NCBI RefSeq assembly: GCF_017794765.1
Contig: NZ_CP051236.1
Location: 728,780-792,779, forward strand
Length of the DNA stretch: 64,000 bases
Reading direction: 5' to 3'
DNA from: Nitratireductor sp.
GTDB taxonomy: Bacteria; Pseudomonadota; Alphaproteobacteria; Rhizobiales; Rhizobiaceae
Positions 19,361 to 26,131 of the stretch are shown in pieces. Position 1 is the stretch's first letter. Every line of letters begins with the position of its first letter. Position numbers and translations under genes: made by a program. The notes below the pieces were generated by a model, which did not search any database, was not told where the DNA came from, and saw only the letters and a list, made by a program, of their open reading frames with translations.

Positions 19361-20344
19361 ATGTTTTCACGATTCTTCGGTTCCCAGCGCCGCGCGTTCT
19401 CCTCACTCAGCGAGCAGGAAGTTCTCGCCCTTGCAATTTCGTCGGAAGAGGACGACGCCCGCATCTATCGCGCCTACGCGGACGGGCTGCGCGATGAATA
19501 TCCGCATTCAGCAGCCGTTTTCGATGACATGGCGGAGGAAGAGGACGGACACCGTGCGGCGCTGATCGAGGCGCATCGCGCGCGTTTCGGCGAGCGCATC
19601 CCCTTGATCCGCCGCGAGCATGTGCGCGGCTATTATGAGCGCAAGCCCGACTGGCTGGTGCGGCCGCTCGGGCTCGACAGGGTGCGCGCGCAGGCCGAGC
19701 GGATGGAGGAGCAGGCGCATCGCTTCTACGTTGAAGCGGCCAGGCGAACCGAGGATGCCGGCATTCGCAAACTGCTTGGCGATCTGGCGATCGCCGAAAA
19801 GACACATGAATCTCTGGCCCACCGGCTCTCCGAAAAACATCTTGGCGAAGACGAACGCGCCGAGGAAGAGCAGACCGAGCGCAAACAGTTCATCCTGACC
19901 TATGTGCAGCCTGGCCTTGCCGGCCTGATGGACGGTTCAGTCTCCACGCTGGCACCTATCTTCGCTGCCGCTTTCGCAACGGGCGACACATGGCAGACTT
20001 TCCTCGTTGGCCTTGCAGCATCCATCGGCGCGGGCATCTCCATGGGTTTCACGGAAGTGGCCTCCGACGACGGCGTGATCTCGGGGCGGGGCTCACCGAT
20101 AAAGCGCGGCCTTGCCACGGGTATCATGACGACCGTGGGTGGTCTCGGCCATGCGCTTCCCTATCTGATCCCGCATTTCTGGACCGCGACGATCATCGCT
20201 TTCATCATCGTTTTCATCGAGTTGTGGGCGATCGCCTGGATCCAGAACCGCTACATGGAGACCCCGTGGAGCCGCGCCACCTTTCAGGTGGTGCTTGGCG
20301 GTGCGCTTGTCTTCGCCACGGGCATGCTCATCGGCAATGCCTGA
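19361..20344 (+). CDS. mbfA: Membrane-bound ferritin A, iron exporter (rubrerythrin-VIT fusion)
   Basis: A 327-residue fusion. Residues about 15-165 form a ferritin-like four-helix domain with metal-ligand motifs EEDGH (60-64), EEQAH (116-120) and EKTHE (146-150). Residues about 175-327 form a VIT1/CCC1-type membrane domain with MDGSVSTLAPIFAAAF and MGFTEVASDDG. MbfA in Agrobacterium and Bradyrhizobium exports iron and protects against iron and peroxide stress. Two Irr-type boxes flank its promoter, matching the known Irr control of mbfA in those genera. Confidence 0.92.
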   Translation: MFSRFFGSQRRAFSSLSEQEVLALAISSEEDDARIYRAYADGLRDEYPHSAAVFDDMAEEEDGHRAALIEAHRARFGERIPLIRREHVRGYYERKPDWLVRPLGLDRVRAQAERMEEQAHRFYVEAARRTEDAGIRKLLGDLAIAEKTHESLAHRLSEKHLGEDERAEEEQTERKQFILTYVQPGLAGLMDGSVSTLAPIFAAAFATGDTWQTFLVGLAASIGAGISMGFTEVASDDGVISGRGSPIKRGLATGIMTTVGGLGHALPYLIPHFWTATIIAFIIVFIELWAIAWIQNRYMETPWSRATFQVVLGGALVFATGMLIGNA

Positions 20345-20350
20345 CGCCGC

Positions 20351-20698
20351 TCATGCGTCATGCAGCGCGCGGCTGTCTTCCGGCACTTCCGCGCGCTCGG
20401 CCATGCCATAGTCGCGCAGGACATGGGCGATGCGCAGACGGTAGCCGGCAAATATCCCGCCGCGACCCGCGCGCTGGGCCTGCCTGTGCTCCTCCGTGTT
20501 GCGCCAGGCCCTGACCGCTTCCTCGTCACGCCAGAACGACAGTGAAAGAATGCGGTTTTCATCGCTGAGGCTCTGGAAGCGTTCGATAGAAATGAAGCCG
20601 TCGATCCCGTCGAGCAGCGGACGCAGATCGGCGGCGATGCCGAGATAGGCATCGCGCCTGCCATCAGCCGGCTCAACCTCGAAGATGACCGCGATCAT
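20351..20698 (-). CDS. Antibiotic biosynthesis monooxygenase (ABM) domain protein
   Basis: A 115-residue ferredoxin-like alpha+beta protein of the ABM family, which includes quinol monooxygenases and IsdG-type heme-degrading enzymes. Visible signatures are MIAVIFEVEP at the start, FISIERFQSLSDENRILSLSFWRDEEAVRAWR in the core, and a C-terminal region about 25 residues longer than the minimal domain. The ATG at 20698 overlaps the NIPSNAP stop by ATGA. Its 3' end almost abuts convergent mbfA (6-base gap). Substrate unknown. Confidence 0.82.
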   Translation of the reverse strand: MIAVIFEVEPADGRRDAYLGIAADLRPLLDGIDGFISIERFQSLSDENRILSLSFWRDEEAVRAWRNTEEHRQAQRAGRGGIFAGYRLRIAHVLRDYGMAERAEVPEDSRALHDA

Positions 20699-21027
20699 GG
20701 CCGCACCCATTCGGCATGGGGCGTGGAAGCGCGTTTCAGGAACATGCGATCCTCCTTGAGAATAAAGCGCTCGCGCCTTGCGAACTCGTAATTTGCGCGA
20801 CCTTCGGAGCTCGCCGCAAGCCGTGTCCGATAAGCCTCATAGGCAGCGAGACTGTCGACATTATAGACGCCATAGGCGGTCGTCGCCGAGCCCTCATATG
20901 GCGCGAAATAGCCGATGAGATCGACACCGGCGCGCGGGATCGCCTGCCCCCAGTTGCGGGAATATTCCTCAAAAGCGTCCCGCTTGAACGGGTCGATCTC
21001 GTAGCGGATGAAACACGTGATGGTCAC
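20695..21027 (-). CDS. NIPSNAP family protein
   Basis: A 110-residue dimeric alpha/beta-barrel type protein matching NIPSNAP: MTITCFIRYEIDPFKRDAFEEYSRNW, then GYFAPYEGSATTAYGVYNVDSLAAYEAYRTRL. The molecular role of bacterial NIPSNAPs is not settled. The start is a GTG at 21027, preceded by AAGGAA. It overlaps the ABM gene (ATGA) and follows the DUF1127 gene by 63 bases, so the three probably form one transcript divergent from the ArsR gene. Confidence 0.82.
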   Translation of the reverse strand: MTITCFIRYEIDPFKRDAFEEYSRNWGQAIPRAGVDLIGYFAPYEGSATTAYGVYNVDSLAAYEAYRTRLAASSEGRANYEFARRERFILKEDRMFLKRASTPHAEWVRP

Positions 21028-21090
21028 GGGTATGATTCCTTTCTGCCGGCATGCTTCGATGAGCGTGGAAGCATTTTCAGGTTTTCTGTG

Positions 21091-21306
21091 TCAGACGTCC
21101 CAGAAGGGCTTAGCGCATTCGCGTTCCACATCACGGCGGGTGAGGCCGACATCGCGGAGCTGCTCGTCGGTGAGATCGGCGAGGTCTCGCCGCTGGCGGT
21201 ATCGCTCCCAAGCAAGCGCGAGTCGGTAGAACCACGACAGGATCCACGTTCGGCGGATTTTGGCCTGTCCCACGGGGGGAACGATCGATCTCTCATATGC
21301 CCGCAT
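21091..21306 (-). CDS. DUF1127 small basic protein
   Basis: A 71-residue Arg-rich protein with a C-terminal DUF1127 module: RDLADLTDEQLRDVGLTRRDVERECAKPFW. DUF1127 proteins are common in alphaproteobacteria, and some bind RNA or affect phosphate and small-RNA turnover. The ATG at 21306 follows AGGGAGAGA; the longer frame to 21357 would run into the divergent promoter region. It is the first gene of a probable DUF1127-NIPSNAP-ABM operon. Confidence 0.85.
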   Translation of the reverse strand: MRAYERSIVPPVGQAKIRRTWILSWFYRLALAWERYRQRRDLADLTDEQLRDVGLTRRDVERECAKPFWDV

Positions 21307-21377
21307 CGCTTCTCTCCCTGTTCGTCGGTCCGAGAATAGCGCTTGTCGAACATTCATACTTTGGTTAGCATCGAACT

Positions 21378-22061
21378 ATGAAAGCAGGAACGGACCTCGC
21401 CCAGATTGCAAGCCTTGTAGGCGATCCTGCGCGCGCCAACATGCTGGCGGCGCTGATGGGTGGCACAGCGCTCACGGCCAGTGAACTCGCCATGGAAGCC
21501 GGTGTCACTTTGCCGACAGCCAGTGCGCATCTTGCCAGGCTGTCAGATGGCGGCTTGCTGCGGATGACGCGGCAGGGCCGTCACCGCTACTACGCGCTGG
21601 CAGGCCATCAGGTCGCCGGTATGCTGGAATCGATAATGGGCGTGGCCGCGGAGCTTGGACCGCGAAAGGTTTTACCTGGTCCACGCGACACGGCCATGCG
21701 CGAAGCCCGGATATGCTATGACCATCTAGCGGGCGAGGCAGGCGTCGCCATGTTCGATGCGTTTGCCGCGCGTGATTTGATCGCGATTGAGGGTGACGAG
21801 GTTAACCTCACGACCAGGGGCGCCATCTATTTCTCCGGTTTCGGTCTCGACATCGAGGCCATGTTGGAGAAGCGCCGCCCGGTATGCCGCTCATGCCTTG
21901 ACTGGAGCGTGCGGCGCTCTCATCTGGCTGGAAGCCTGGGGGCCGGGCTTCTCGATCGGTTTATCGCTTTGCGCTGGGTGCGGCGGGAGAAAGACAGCCG
22001 CGTCATCCGCTTTACCCCACCCGGACGCACCGCCTTCGAGAAATTGCTGCGCGAGGCTTGA
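21378..22061 (+). CDS. ArsR-type winged-helix regulator with extended C-terminal domain
   Basis: A 227-residue regulator, about twice the length of a minimal ArsR protein. The N-terminal winged helix spans about 8-80 (GDPARANMLAALMGG, LTASELAMEAGVTLPTASAHLARLSDGGLL). The C-terminal part carries a CRSCLDWSVRRSHLAGSLGAGLLDRF segment with a Cys-x2-Cys that could sense metal, redox state or heme. Only 71 bases separate it from the divergent DUF1127 gene, its obvious target. Confidence 0.85.
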   Translation: MKAGTDLAQIASLVGDPARANMLAALMGGTALTASELAMEAGVTLPTASAHLARLSDGGLLRMTRQGRHRYYALAGHQVAGMLESIMGVAAELGPRKVLPGPRDTAMREARICYDHLAGEAGVAMFDAFAARDLIAIEGDEVNLTTRGAIYFSGFGLDIEAMLEKRRPVCRSCLDWSVRRSHLAGSLGAGLLDRFIALRWVRREKDSRVIRFTPPGRTAFEKLLREA

Positions 22062-23572: not shown

Positions 23573-23932
23573 CTATTCACAATATTTCACGATGACAGGC
23601 TCGCCTGCTTCAGTGCCGATCTCATGGCATGATCCGGCGGCGCATAGCCGCCAGCCGGAGCCTGTTGCGCCCGACGCCGCCAGTGCAAGCTGAACCCGCG
23701 GCGGCAGGGAGGGGCGATAGCGCCACCAGCCTTCTGAAAATCGTGCTTCGGGCGGTGGCTCCATGCCGGCACCCGAGCCCTGAACACGCGCCTCGATAAT
23801 CTCAAGACCGGCGCGTGTCGCCCGCCAGTCTTCTTCCCAGCGGATTTTCTCCACCGAGTGTGTCCATGACAGGGTGAAAAGCGCAGCCCCAAGTGTGAGC
23901 GCCTTTCCTCCTGCCAGAACACATATGCTCAT
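23573..23932 (-). CDS. DUF1850 protein of the TAXI-TRAP operon
   Basis: A 119-residue protein with an N-terminal hydrophobic leader (CVLAGGKALTLGAALFTLSWTHSVEKI). DUF1850 proteins are regularly encoded with TAXI-type TRAP transporters and are thought to be periplasmic helpers; the mechanism is unknown. Core features are the WTHSVEKIRWEEDW segment and a late Cys pair (RLCAAGSCHEIG). The start overlaps the stop of the fused permease as ATGA, so it is the last gene of the operon. Confidence 0.8.
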   Translation of the reverse strand: MSICVLAGGKALTLGAALFTLSWTHSVEKIRWEEDWRATRAGLEIIEARVQGSGAGMEPPPEARFSEGWWRYRPSLPPRVQLALAASGATGSGWRLCAAGSCHEIGTEAGEPVIVKYCE

Positions 23933-26046
23933 GTGTCGGCCTTCGTATCCGCCGGTGCCTCCGCTGCACGGGTGCGATACCAGTGCAGACCAAGGAAGAT
24001 CGCTGCCAGCCCAAAGCCGAGTTCATCGGTTATCGGCAGCGCGGCAATGAGCGTGAACGCTGCTGCGGCTGCGAGAACGCGCTCCCAGATTGCCAGTTTC
24101 GCGCGCAGAAACCCGATAACCGCCGCGCCCCAGAGCGCAATGGCAAGCAACGCCTTGAAGACGATATAGGCGACCGCCGGATAATAGCCCCAGGCCTCCG
24201 CCAGCGGCCCGCCATCCTGCAGCATCAACGCCGGCGTGTAGACGGCCATGAAGGGGATGACGAAACCGGCGGCAGCCACCTTGATGGCCTCCATGGAAAT
24301 CTTGAGGCCGTTCTCCCTGGCGATTGGGCCGGCGGCGAAGCAGGCAAGCGCAACGGGCGGCGTCAGGTCCGCCAGAATGCCGAAATAAAAGACGAACATG
24401 TGGCTGACGATCAGCGGCACACCAAGCGCCAGAAGCGCCGGGCCGGCGATCGACGATGTGATGATGTAGTTGGGAATGGTGGGGATGCCCATGCCCAGCA
24501 CGATGCAGGTTATCATGGTGAGAACGAGCGAAAGGAACAGACTCGTCTCGCCCACGGAGACGATGAACTGGCCGAATGTGTTCGCAACGCCGGTCAGGGT
24601 CATGGTTCCGATAATGATGCCGACCACGGCGCAGGCCACGCCGACCGGAAGTGCCGTCTTGGCACCCTCAGCGAGTGAATCCCGACAGACAATGAGTGTC
24701 CTGCGCCCGCCATCGACAAACAGGTTGGCGATGATGAGTGCAAGAGCGGCGATCAGGATGGCCGTGATGCCATAGCGAAAGAAGCTCGCGGCAACGAGAC
24801 CAAGGCCAACCCAGAAGATCACCCGCAGCACCTGCCCTGGAAGGCCGAGTGCGACCGAGCCGCCGAGAATAAGAAGCACTGTCAGCGAAAGGCCGATCGT
24901 GCCAGCGAAGAGCGGCGTGTATCCCGTGAACAGCAGATAGACCAGCACTGCCAGCGGCAGGATGAGGTACCAGCCTTTTCTCAGCGCGTTGCGGGCGGAA
25001 GGAAGCTCGGAGCGCGGCAGGCCATGCAGACCGTATTTGCCGGCTTCCAGATGCACCATCCAGAAGGCCGAGGCGAAATAGAGCACGGCGGGGATGATCG
25101 CCGCCTTGACCACCTCGTAATACTCCACACCCAGCGTCTCGGCCATGATGAATGCTACCGCACCCATGACCGGCGGCATGATCTGCCCGCCCATGGAGGC
25201 GGTGGATTCCACGCCTCCGGCGAAGGCCGCGCGGTAGCCAAACCGCTTCATGAGCGGGATGGTGAACTGGCCGGTGGTGACCACATTGGCAACGCCGGAG
25301 CCGGAGATCGTGCCCATCAGGCCCGACGAAATGACTGACACCTTGGCCGCGCCACCGCGTGCATGGCCAACGAGGCCGAGCGAGACATCCGTGAAAAGCC
25401 TGATCATGCCGGCACGCTCCAGGAAGGAGCCGAACAGGATGAACAGGAAGATATAGGTGGCCGATACATAGATCGGTATGCCGTAAATGCCTTCCGTACC
25501 ATAGGCCATGTGGTCGATGACCTGGCTGAAATCATAGCCGCGATGGTTGAGTGGCGCGGGCAGGTATTGGCCGAACAGGCAATAGGCGAGGAACGCGCCC
25601 GAGATTATTGGCAGCGCCGGTCCCATGAGCACATACGCGGCCGCAAAGACGGTGATGAGTGCGATCACGCCGAACACGATGTCGAGCGGCAGGGGATCGC
25701 CGGCCCGCAGAAGCAGCGGCTTGTATTCAACATACTGATAAAGCGCGACAGCTACACCGGCGAGCGCCAGCGCCCATGCCAGCGCCTTGATGGGAGGGGT
25801 GCTGTCACGCGCCTGCGCCACCAGCGGGAAAACCAGCAGTGTCAGGAAACCGACGTGGAAAGCACGGACCACCTGGCTTGGCAGGCTGATCACATGCGCG
25901 GCGGTGGCGATCTGGTACAGCGAGAACACCACGGCAATCCAGAACAGCAGCCGGCCGATGCGGTCCGCCCCGAATTCTCCGTGCGTATGGTCGTGCAATT
26001 CAGCCTCGGCCGGGCTCGCGGCCTGGCCAGTCTCTGTATTCGTCAT
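23929..26046 (-). CDS. TRAP transporter, fused 4TM/12TM permease (TAXI type)
   Basis: A 705-residue membrane protein fusing the small (DctQ-like) and large (DctM-like) permease subunits, as is usual for TAXI systems. The DctM part has FLIFILFGSFLERAGMI-like and GGQIMPPVMGAVAFIMAE segments, plus MGIPTIPNYIITSSIAGPAL. It imports a carboxylate, often glutamate or 2-oxoglutarate in this class, with sodium or protons; the substrate here is unknown. The ATG at 26046 follows GGAGCG; an upstream in-frame extension lacks homology. It is 160 bases after the receptor gene, with two hairpins between. Confidence 0.92.
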   Translation of the reverse strand: MTNTETGQAASPAEAELHDHTHGEFGADRIGRLLFWIAVVFSLYQIATAAHVISLPSQVVRAFHVGFLTLLVFPLVAQARDSTPPIKALAWALALAGVAVALYQYVEYKPLLLRAGDPLPLDIVFGVIALITVFAAAYVLMGPALPIISGAFLAYCLFGQYLPAPLNHRGYDFSQVIDHMAYGTEGIYGIPIYVSATYIFLFILFGSFLERAGMIRLFTDVSLGLVGHARGGAAKVSVISSGLMGTISGSGVANVVTTGQFTIPLMKRFGYRAAFAGGVESTASMGGQIMPPVMGAVAFIMAETLGVEYYEVVKAAIIPAVLYFASAFWMVHLEAGKYGLHGLPRSELPSARNALRKGWYLILPLAVLVYLLFTGYTPLFAGTIGLSLTVLLILGGSVALGLPGQVLRVIFWVGLGLVAASFFRYGITAILIAALALIIANLFVDGGRRTLIVCRDSLAEGAKTALPVGVACAVVGIIIGTMTLTGVANTFGQFIVSVGETSLFLSLVLTMITCIVLGMGIPTIPNYIITSSIAGPALLALGVPLIVSHMFVFYFGILADLTPPVALACFAAGPIARENGLKISMEAIKVAAAGFVIPFMAVYTPALMLQDGGPLAEAWGYYPAVAYIVFKALLAIALWGAAVIGFLRAKLAIWERVLAAAAAFTLIAALPITDELGFGLAAIFLGLHWYRTRAAEAPADTKADT

Positions 26047-26131
26047 CGGGCGCTCCGCTTCCCATGCTACGCGTCGGGGCCTTGCCGATTGTCCGCTCCC
26101 GCGCATCGCATGCGGGAGGGCTCGACATCTC

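Follow-up and report, generated by a model that had tools for sequence, protein, structure and literature searches.

The classical metal site of ArsR repressors is a CxC pair of Cys residues in helix alpha-3 of the DNA-binding domain. A cluster of ABM, ACT-like and ArsR genes is also part of the cargo of Tn10; in the available text of PMC7767384 and PMC5571418 the Tn10 genes are named jemA, jemB and jemC, with no function stated there, and jemC is, according to the former, the name of the gene beside tetR. In this study, a related cluster was analyzed in a stretch of 64,000 nucleotides of Nitratireductor sp. (RefSeq assembly GCF_017794765.1, contig NZ_CP051236.1, positions 728,780 to 792,779 of the forward strand), hereafter called the window. 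Here, a gene for an ArsR/SmtB-type repressor faces the genes for a small DUF1127 protein, a NIPSNAP protein and an ABM-domain protein. As judged from sequence comparison, the window probably holds its own copy of an ArsR regulon that is conserved, regulates itself and serves the detoxification or efflux of a small toxic organic molecule. The cluster itself, its operator, the retention of the operator where no ArsR is adjacent, the association with exporters and the relationship to Tn10 are strongly supported by these comparisons.

Conservation of the cluster

Two sets of relatives of the window NIPSNAP protein were compared. With each species represented by one genome, at least 592 relatives were detected; the best 80 of these, called the named loci, stem mostly from Rhizobiaceae, the nearest one being that of Nitratireductor aquimarinus (89%). 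Furthermore, evenly drawn genome samples, in which E ≤ 1e-20 counted as a match, contained the protein in 58 of 387 genomes of the class and in 82 of 397 genomes of the phylum. From these samples 60 regions were picked by hand for spread over genera; 58 scored above 140 bits, and after removal of one duplicate of a named locus 57 distinct regions formed the wider sample (loci carry L numbers; L233 and L234, below 140 bits, were left out). Among the matches listed, the NIPSNAP scores split into those above 140 bits, the module type, and those of 114 bits or less. L233, the NIPSNAP protein of which reaches only 113 bits, nevertheless possesses an ABM gene and a dyad. The source genome (one contig, 3.7 Mb, stated completeness 86%) yielded one NIPSNAP match.

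A divergent, adjacent ArsR gene was present in 76 of the 80 named loci, an adjacent ABM gene on the same strand likewise in 76, and both together in 74, so that the co-occurrence bears out the conserved unit suggested in the original prediction, which was made from the window alone. In the wider sample, ArsR was adjacent in 41 of the 57 distinct regions, ABM also in 41, and both in 33. Plasmid-borne copies of the cluster occur in Burkholderia glumae, Rhodovulum, Paracoccus and Vibrio. mbfA, by comparison, was near NIPSNAP in 29 of the 80 named and none of five plasmid loci, and DUF1127 lay between ArsR and NIPSNAP in 20 named loci, each time with mbfA present. Going by these gene orders, the core is therefore ArsR // NIPSNAP-ABM, and mbfA and DUF1127 are lineage-specific additions. 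The idea that a DUF1127 gene beside such an ArsR is a peculiarity of the window was discarded in view of the same neighbor in these 20 loci.

Some loci deviate from the usual layout. In L042 and L095, mbfA comes right after NIPSNAP, ABM having apparently been lost; L058 and L083 contain a split ABM frame, by decay or assembly error; in L115 and L227, ArsR lies downstream of NIPSNAP on the same strand and has C170 replaced by Ala.

In the literature searched, no paper was found that mentions NIPSNAP together with ArsR and DUF1127, together with ABM and ArsR, or together with ABM and the term operon. The combination of 'NIPSNAP family protein' with 'ArsR family' was not found there either, and among the papers listed by a looser search none appeared relevant as far as titles and the beginnings of abstracts tell. 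This agrees with the earlier assumption of an undescribed module.

The operator dyad

A dyad of 24 bp, ATGCTTCG-N8-CGAAGYAT, is common to the relatives upstream of arsR, where it overlaps the arsR start. Its strict core TTCG-N8-CGAA occurs in 108 of 125 ArsR loci compared to 0.29 expected from mononucleotide shuffling; these loci are related, and the 118 sites detected with a relaxed pattern represent 81 distinct sequences. Other spacings (3–14) of TTCG and CGAA were met in zero to two loci each. Among the 118 relatives with a site, the site ends directly at the arsR start codon in 109, and 78 show a TTG at -35 spacing from a TTANNAT within the site. The window contains four strand matches of the pattern (0.32 expected), all within two dyads, and these two show the fewest mismatches genome-wide. 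This comparison lends strong support to the operator. By sequence, the locus also shows a trait of the ArsR/SmtB family, namely a dyad at the promoter of the repressor gene itself.

Sites were also scored with a position-specific scoring matrix (PSSM). It was trained on the arsR-proximal sites of the relaxed pattern, so that the scores of those sites are partly circular; NIPSNAP-proximal sites of non-adjacent loci, second dyads and the Tn10 site are outside the training set. A second dyad (score ≥ 15) was found between DUF1127 and NIPSNAP in 14 of the 20 named loci with DUF1127, and all ten loci possessing mbfA without DUF1127 (nine named loci and L231) have a second dyad at this score as well. 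Loci in which ArsR is not adjacent, meaning that none lies within 500 bp of NIPSNAP, were compared with a first-order Markov null; in 17 of the 20 distinct ones, a site scoring beyond its 99th percentile is retained. These sites are located at -70 to -81 before NIPSNAP, and in one case at -108. The remaining three are L206, where the usual position scores 3.0 bits, L228 (no site) and L100, the contig of which begins 74 bp upstream. In L189, L203 and L228, an ArsR gene lies within about 3 kb of NIPSNAP. The upstream regions of lower-scoring NIPSNAP genes served as negative control and showed no site in eight of nine scorable cases, the ninth being L233 with its adjacent ABM. Genome G178 possesses ArsR // DUF1127 at one place and NIPSNAP-ABM elsewhere, with dyads of 19.6 bits (L261) and 22.4 bits (L205). 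A search of 56 chosen genomes returned 108 strand matches of the pattern versus 12 of its reversed form, with a match in 50 of these genomes.

Candidate targets and exporters

The pattern search of the 56 chosen genomes yielded 27 dyads outside the cluster, 14 of which were hand-chosen first, followed by the remaining 13. An EamA gene was the neighbor at seven of the 27 (L302, L303, L305, L307, L310, L314 and L336), an MFS gene at two (L304 and L312) and a glutathione transferase gene at two (L306 and L311). As the EamA cases come from five families, they are not seven independent events; the dyads of L305 and L306 also belong to a local ArsR. Among the first 14, L308, L309, L313 and L315 were unclear; in L309 the distance between the dyad and a SnoaL-like gene is about 1 kb, and in L313 the PSSM detects no site at 12 bits. 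Among the later 13, only L336 supplied a supporting target (EamA), and the likelihood of the regulon stayed as it was; the neighbors there also included a periplasmic-binding-protein gene (L324) and a DctP gene (L327), and no gene passing the filter was detected near the dyads of L325, L332, L333 and L335. In L329 (G677 C1:4542314), a dyad of 27.2 bits precedes a RidA-type (Ribonuc_L-PSP) gene by about 60 bp, which might be a further target.

Beside these dyads, the gene following the operon (within 200 bp of NIPSNAP/ABM, same strand) was examined in 26 loci. In nine of them it encodes an exporter: LysE (L116, L119), TauE/SafE (L117), EamA (L179, L212, L217), Mem_trans of the AEC type (L183, L191) or MFS (L198). 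Of seven ArsR relatives without NIPSNAP that were opened, three are accompanied by an MFS gene (L259, L262, L263) and two by DUF1127 (L261 and, with a weak match, L254). In both of the latter, DUF1127 is divergent from a related ArsR without NIPSNAP or ABM, and the dyad lies between them or at the ArsR start. Two plasmid ArsR genes face an MFS gene; one of them stems from Staphylococcus, and its dyad scores 19.1 bits. The detoxification reading rests mainly on the repeated occurrence of exporters for organic compounds.

Relatives on Tn10 and other plasmids

A tblastn search of plasmids with the window ArsR resulted in 882 records, including Escherichia (354), Salmonella (126) and Klebsiella (56). 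In 19 of 25 rows spread down the ranking of these matches, tetR was named under the match. On R100, the gene order of the Tn10 stretch (L322, 3680–5151) is ABM, ACT-like protein, ArsR and tetR(B). Against the module profiles, the Tn10 ABM protein scores 132 bits and the Tn10 ArsR 215 bits; the latter keeps the Cys residues equivalent to C113, C170 and C173 of the window ArsR, and a dyad of 21.2 bits is located 73 bp before the ABM start. The ACT-like protein remains below the Pfam cut-off for ACT (21 bits; cut-off 27) and matches the ACT protein of the alphaproteobacterial locus L218 with 125 bits. Since L218 has NIPSNAP, ABM and ACT together, it links the NIPSNAP and ACT layouts. Plasmids of Pantoea, Cronobacter and Haematobacter also carry ABM and an ACT-type protein with the same ArsR type, and the Haematobacter locus contains a weak NIPSNAP-like frame (37 bits) as well. 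At least part of the Tn10 stretch is present in 839 of 5,426 complete E. coli genomes, and at least 80% of it in 588. In the window, NIPSNAP precedes ABM and there is no ACT gene; the cluster is therefore related to the ABM-ACT-ArsR type of Tn10 without being a member of it.

The ArsR protein

Beside the NCBIfam match (Table 1), the window ArsR exceeds the Pfam cut-offs of HTH_5 (26.3 bits; cut-off 22) and HTH_20 (42.2 bits; cut-off 27), and its winged helix was modeled with confidence. A fold search gave PDB matches that, in the 50 rows shown, span only the first ~90–100 residues, with no partner for the C-terminal part. The Cys-x2-Cys region noticed earlier in this part consists of C170 and C173. 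C173 is kept in 121 of 121 and C170 in 119 of 121 ungapped rows, and C113 in all 122 relatives.

Three near-invariant cysteines, together with the ArsR/SmtB fold and the NF033788 score, would also suit a thiol-metal or metalloid sensor, in which As(III), Sb(III), Cd(II) or the like would be bound by C113, C170 and C173 and organometalloids would be the substrates of the enzymes. This explanation is rather unlikely: no Cys occurs in the first 112 residues of the window ArsR, so that the classical alpha-3 CxC site is absent, and the exporters among the targets examined belong to the EamA, MFS, LysE, TauE/SafE and Mem_trans families, with no metal pump family seen there.

The NIPSNAP and ABM proteins

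For the NIPSNAP protein, a confident ferredoxin-like fold was predicted (predicted local distance difference test, pLDDT, 92.5). The best PDB matches of the fold search were NIPSNAP proteins (1vqy and 5kak); a sequence search of the PDB yielded chance-level hits, mostly to antibody chains. At residue 33, Cys was found in 103, Asn in 36 and Ala in four of 143 loci, and the window protein has Ala.

The fold neighbors of NIPSNAP also include LsrG and PA0709/ArqI with a glyoxal adduct. Together with the glyoxal induction of arqI-gloA2 (available text of PMC12274486), a VOC-family gene near the Paracoccus locus and an alpha/beta hydrolase in the Methylorubrum operon, this is consistent with a processing of aldehydes or signals, where ABM would act like LsrG or ArqI and the regulon would answer an alpha-oxoaldehyde or a signaling compound. 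Against it, no glyoxalase was recognized at the operator sites examined, and by profile search of the PDB the window ABM is closest to YqjZ (2go8, profile E 1.4e-12); we regard such a function as unlikely. A quinone-modifying role, which the original prediction mentioned too, may apply to the module.

The window ABM keeps W69 (122 of 122 relatives), H75, Q79 and the GR motif. The position W+10, where IsdG has His77, is Gln in 121 of 121 ungapped rows; columns 8 and 10 of strand 1 hold V/I and F/L, and strand 1 of the window protein contains no Asn. A scan of the window for Irr-type boxes (≤ 2 mismatches) detected only two, both upstream of mbfA, and none at the ArsR, DUF1127 or NIPSNAP promoters. 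Heme handling was among the suggestions of the original prediction. A heme or iron module in which ABM degrades or binds heme, NIPSNAP binds heme and iron control is shared with mbfA could be argued from the 6 bp between the ends of mbfA and ABM and from those ABM proteins that degrade heme or, like PA0709 of P. aeruginosa, bind it in vitro (PMC7857532, available text). It is very improbable, however, and was rejected in view of the positions of the Irr-type boxes, the neighbor statistics of mbfA, a score of 18 bits against the heme-degrading HmuQ model (cut-off 130) and the absence of the Asn and His of the Asn-Trp-His triad of heme-degrading ABM proteins (PMC6018153, available text). According to the available texts, PA0709 itself did not degrade heme (PMC7857532), and a later study considered its canonical pocket too small to accommodate heme (PMC12274486).

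Proposed regulon

We infer binding and repression by ArsR, sensing by its cysteines, an electrophile-like inducer and an enzyme activity of the small proteins. In the proposed detoxification and efflux regulon, ArsR with C113, C170 and C173 would bind the dyad ATGCTTCG-N8-CGAAGYAT, presumably as a dimer. As the dyad holds the arsR -10 box and sits at the divergent promoter, the repressor would silence its own gene together with its targets. Its release would follow when a small organic molecule, reactive or toxic, modifies or binds the repressor; NIPSNAP and ABM would then be made and convert that compound. Induction would in many relatives extend to an exporter of small molecules (EamA/DMT, MFS, LysE, TauE/SafE or AEC type) and, in two cases, perhaps to a glutathione transferase. 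In the Rhizobiaceae lineage linked to mbfA, the DUF1127 protein would have been added to the regulon as a further output.

Several observations weigh against this regulon. Sixteen of the 27 dyads outside the cluster have other or unclear neighbors and no fitting gene, and five of the later 13 sites lie inside a long reading frame (L326, L328, L330, L331 and L334); many one-mismatch sites are therefore probably due to chance. A glutathione transferase was found at only two of the 27, and in L306 about 195 bp separate its start from the dyad. In 17 of 26 loci, NIPSNAP/ABM is followed by a gene other than a recognized exporter, and ABM is absent beside NIPSNAP in 16 of the 57 distinct regions of the wider sample. 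By the relaxed pattern, seven of 125 ArsR loci are without a site, of which L067 and L105 gained one by PSSM, and C170 is Ala in two relatives. In addition, the own genome lacks an exporter bearing a strong site: its other two-mismatch sites (L267–L271) score 0.3–10.7 bits versus 29.7 and 26.0 bits for the two dyads. Among them, L270 (C1:1478466, 6.3 bits) is the site of another ArsR with its own TTCGAA-type palindrome, encoded upstream of an MFS gene; the half-site is similar, the regulator another one.

The site of L268, also in the own genome, precedes a DUF411 gene.

It is conceivable, if still tentative, that these loci together form a stress regulon absent from the literature searched, in which one ArsR type and one operator range from Rhizobiaceae to Vibrio plasmids and, as ArsR // MFS, to a Staphylococcus plasmid, and which detoxifies a specific reactive small molecule by means of paired NIPSNAP (or ACT) and ABM proteins, interchangeable exporters and a recruited DUF1127 protein. 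If this is true, NIPSNAP and YqjZ-like ABM proteins, families of unclear bacterial function, would obtain a function-level hypothesis and a testable operator, and a DUF1127 protein would be placed under a defined regulator. The Tn10 branch would then explain the cargo beside tetR(B) and suggest a purpose of its ABM-ACT-ArsR genes. The operator also allows a genome-by-genome search for further targets.

Arrangement of the locus

All genes named in the original prediction were recovered with Pfam or NCBIfam scores above the cut-offs, and mbfA and ABM indeed lie tail to tail (Table 1).

Table 1. Genes, operators and promoter elements of the ArsR locus in the window.
Feature	Position	Strand	Evidence
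ArsR/SmtB-family repressor with C-terminal domain, 227 aa	21378..22061	+	NF033788 (metalloregulator ArsR/SmtB) 56.2 bits (cut-off 55)
DUF1127 small protein, 71 aa	21091..21306	-	PF06568 34.7 bits (cut-off 23.3)
NIPSNAP protein, 110 aa, GTG start, ferredoxin-like fold	20695..21027	-	PF07978 77.6 bits (cut-off 22.3)
ABM-domain protein, YqjZ-like, 115 aa	20351..20698	-	PF03992 67.5 bits (cut-off 23.1)
mbfA iron exporter, convergent neighbor outside the regulon	19361..20344	+	NCBIfam NF045676 579.6 bits (cut-off 450)
Operator 1, ATACTTTGGTTAGCATCGAACTAT	21356..21379	.	PSSM 29.7 bits; overlaps the arsR start codon
Operator 2, ATGCTTCGATGAGCGTGGAAGCAT	21051..21074	.	PSSM 26.0 bits; directly 5' of NIPSNAP
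Predicted arsR promoter, TTGTCG, 17-bp spacer, TAGCAT	21343..21371	+	Predicted from sequence
Irr-type (ICE-like) box, TTAGAAGCATTCTAA	19281..19295	.	Exact match, upstream of mbfA
Second Irr-type box, TTAGAATCATTCTAA	19327..19341	.	Exact match, upstream of mbfA

The -10 box of the predicted promoter lies inside operator 1, wherefore the arsR mRNA would be leaderless; arsR thus probably makes a leaderless mRNA from a promoter within its own operator. By its position, operator 1 would serve arsR and also DUF1127. The start of DUF1127 is most likely at 21306, because the alternative start at 21357 would fall within the operator. For ABM, 20698 is most likely the start; its relatives share a start Met equivalent to this position. 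Here, the ATG overlaps the NIPSNAP stop (ATGA), for which reason NIPSNAP and ABM are probably translationally coupled. Of the three-gene operon predicted originally, the transcription order DUF1127, NIPSNAP, ABM on the minus strand, divergent from ArsR, holds true, but the second dyad within it means that NIPSNAP-ABM has a control site of its own as well.

Farther along in the window, a DUF1850 protein (23573–23932, PF08905 78.3 bits) adjoins a large membrane protein (23929–26106), which by eye resembles TRAP-type permeases.

Comparison with known systems

The window ArsR differs from the ArsR metal sensors of the alpha-3 CxC type, as it is without that CxC. With SmtB, CzrA, CmtR and NolR it shares the N-terminal winged helix and a dyad operator at the own promoter; unlike them, it possesses an extra C-terminal part of ~130 residues with a CxxCLDW motif.

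The ABM protein resembles IsdG, MhuD and HmuQ in the ABM domain and Trp69; unlike these, it has neither the Asn of strand 1 nor the axial His and remains below the HmuQ cut-off. In the ArqI-GloA2 system of P. aeruginosa, an ABM protein is likewise encoded in a stress-induced operon, comparable to the putative stress operon described here, but that protein is LsrG-like and has a glyoxalase as partner, and the terms 'ArsR' and 'NIPSNAP' occur zero times in the available text of PMC12274486. The W-x5-H and GR motifs are common to the window ABM and YqjZ of Bacillus subtilis, the PDB entry of which (2go8) is titled 'hypothetical protein'. The cargo of Tn10 on R100 possesses an ACT-like protein in place of NIPSNAP, and its ArsR lies downstream on the same strand, whereas the ABM subfamily, the ArsR subfamily, the cysteines and the dyad are common to Tn10 and the window.

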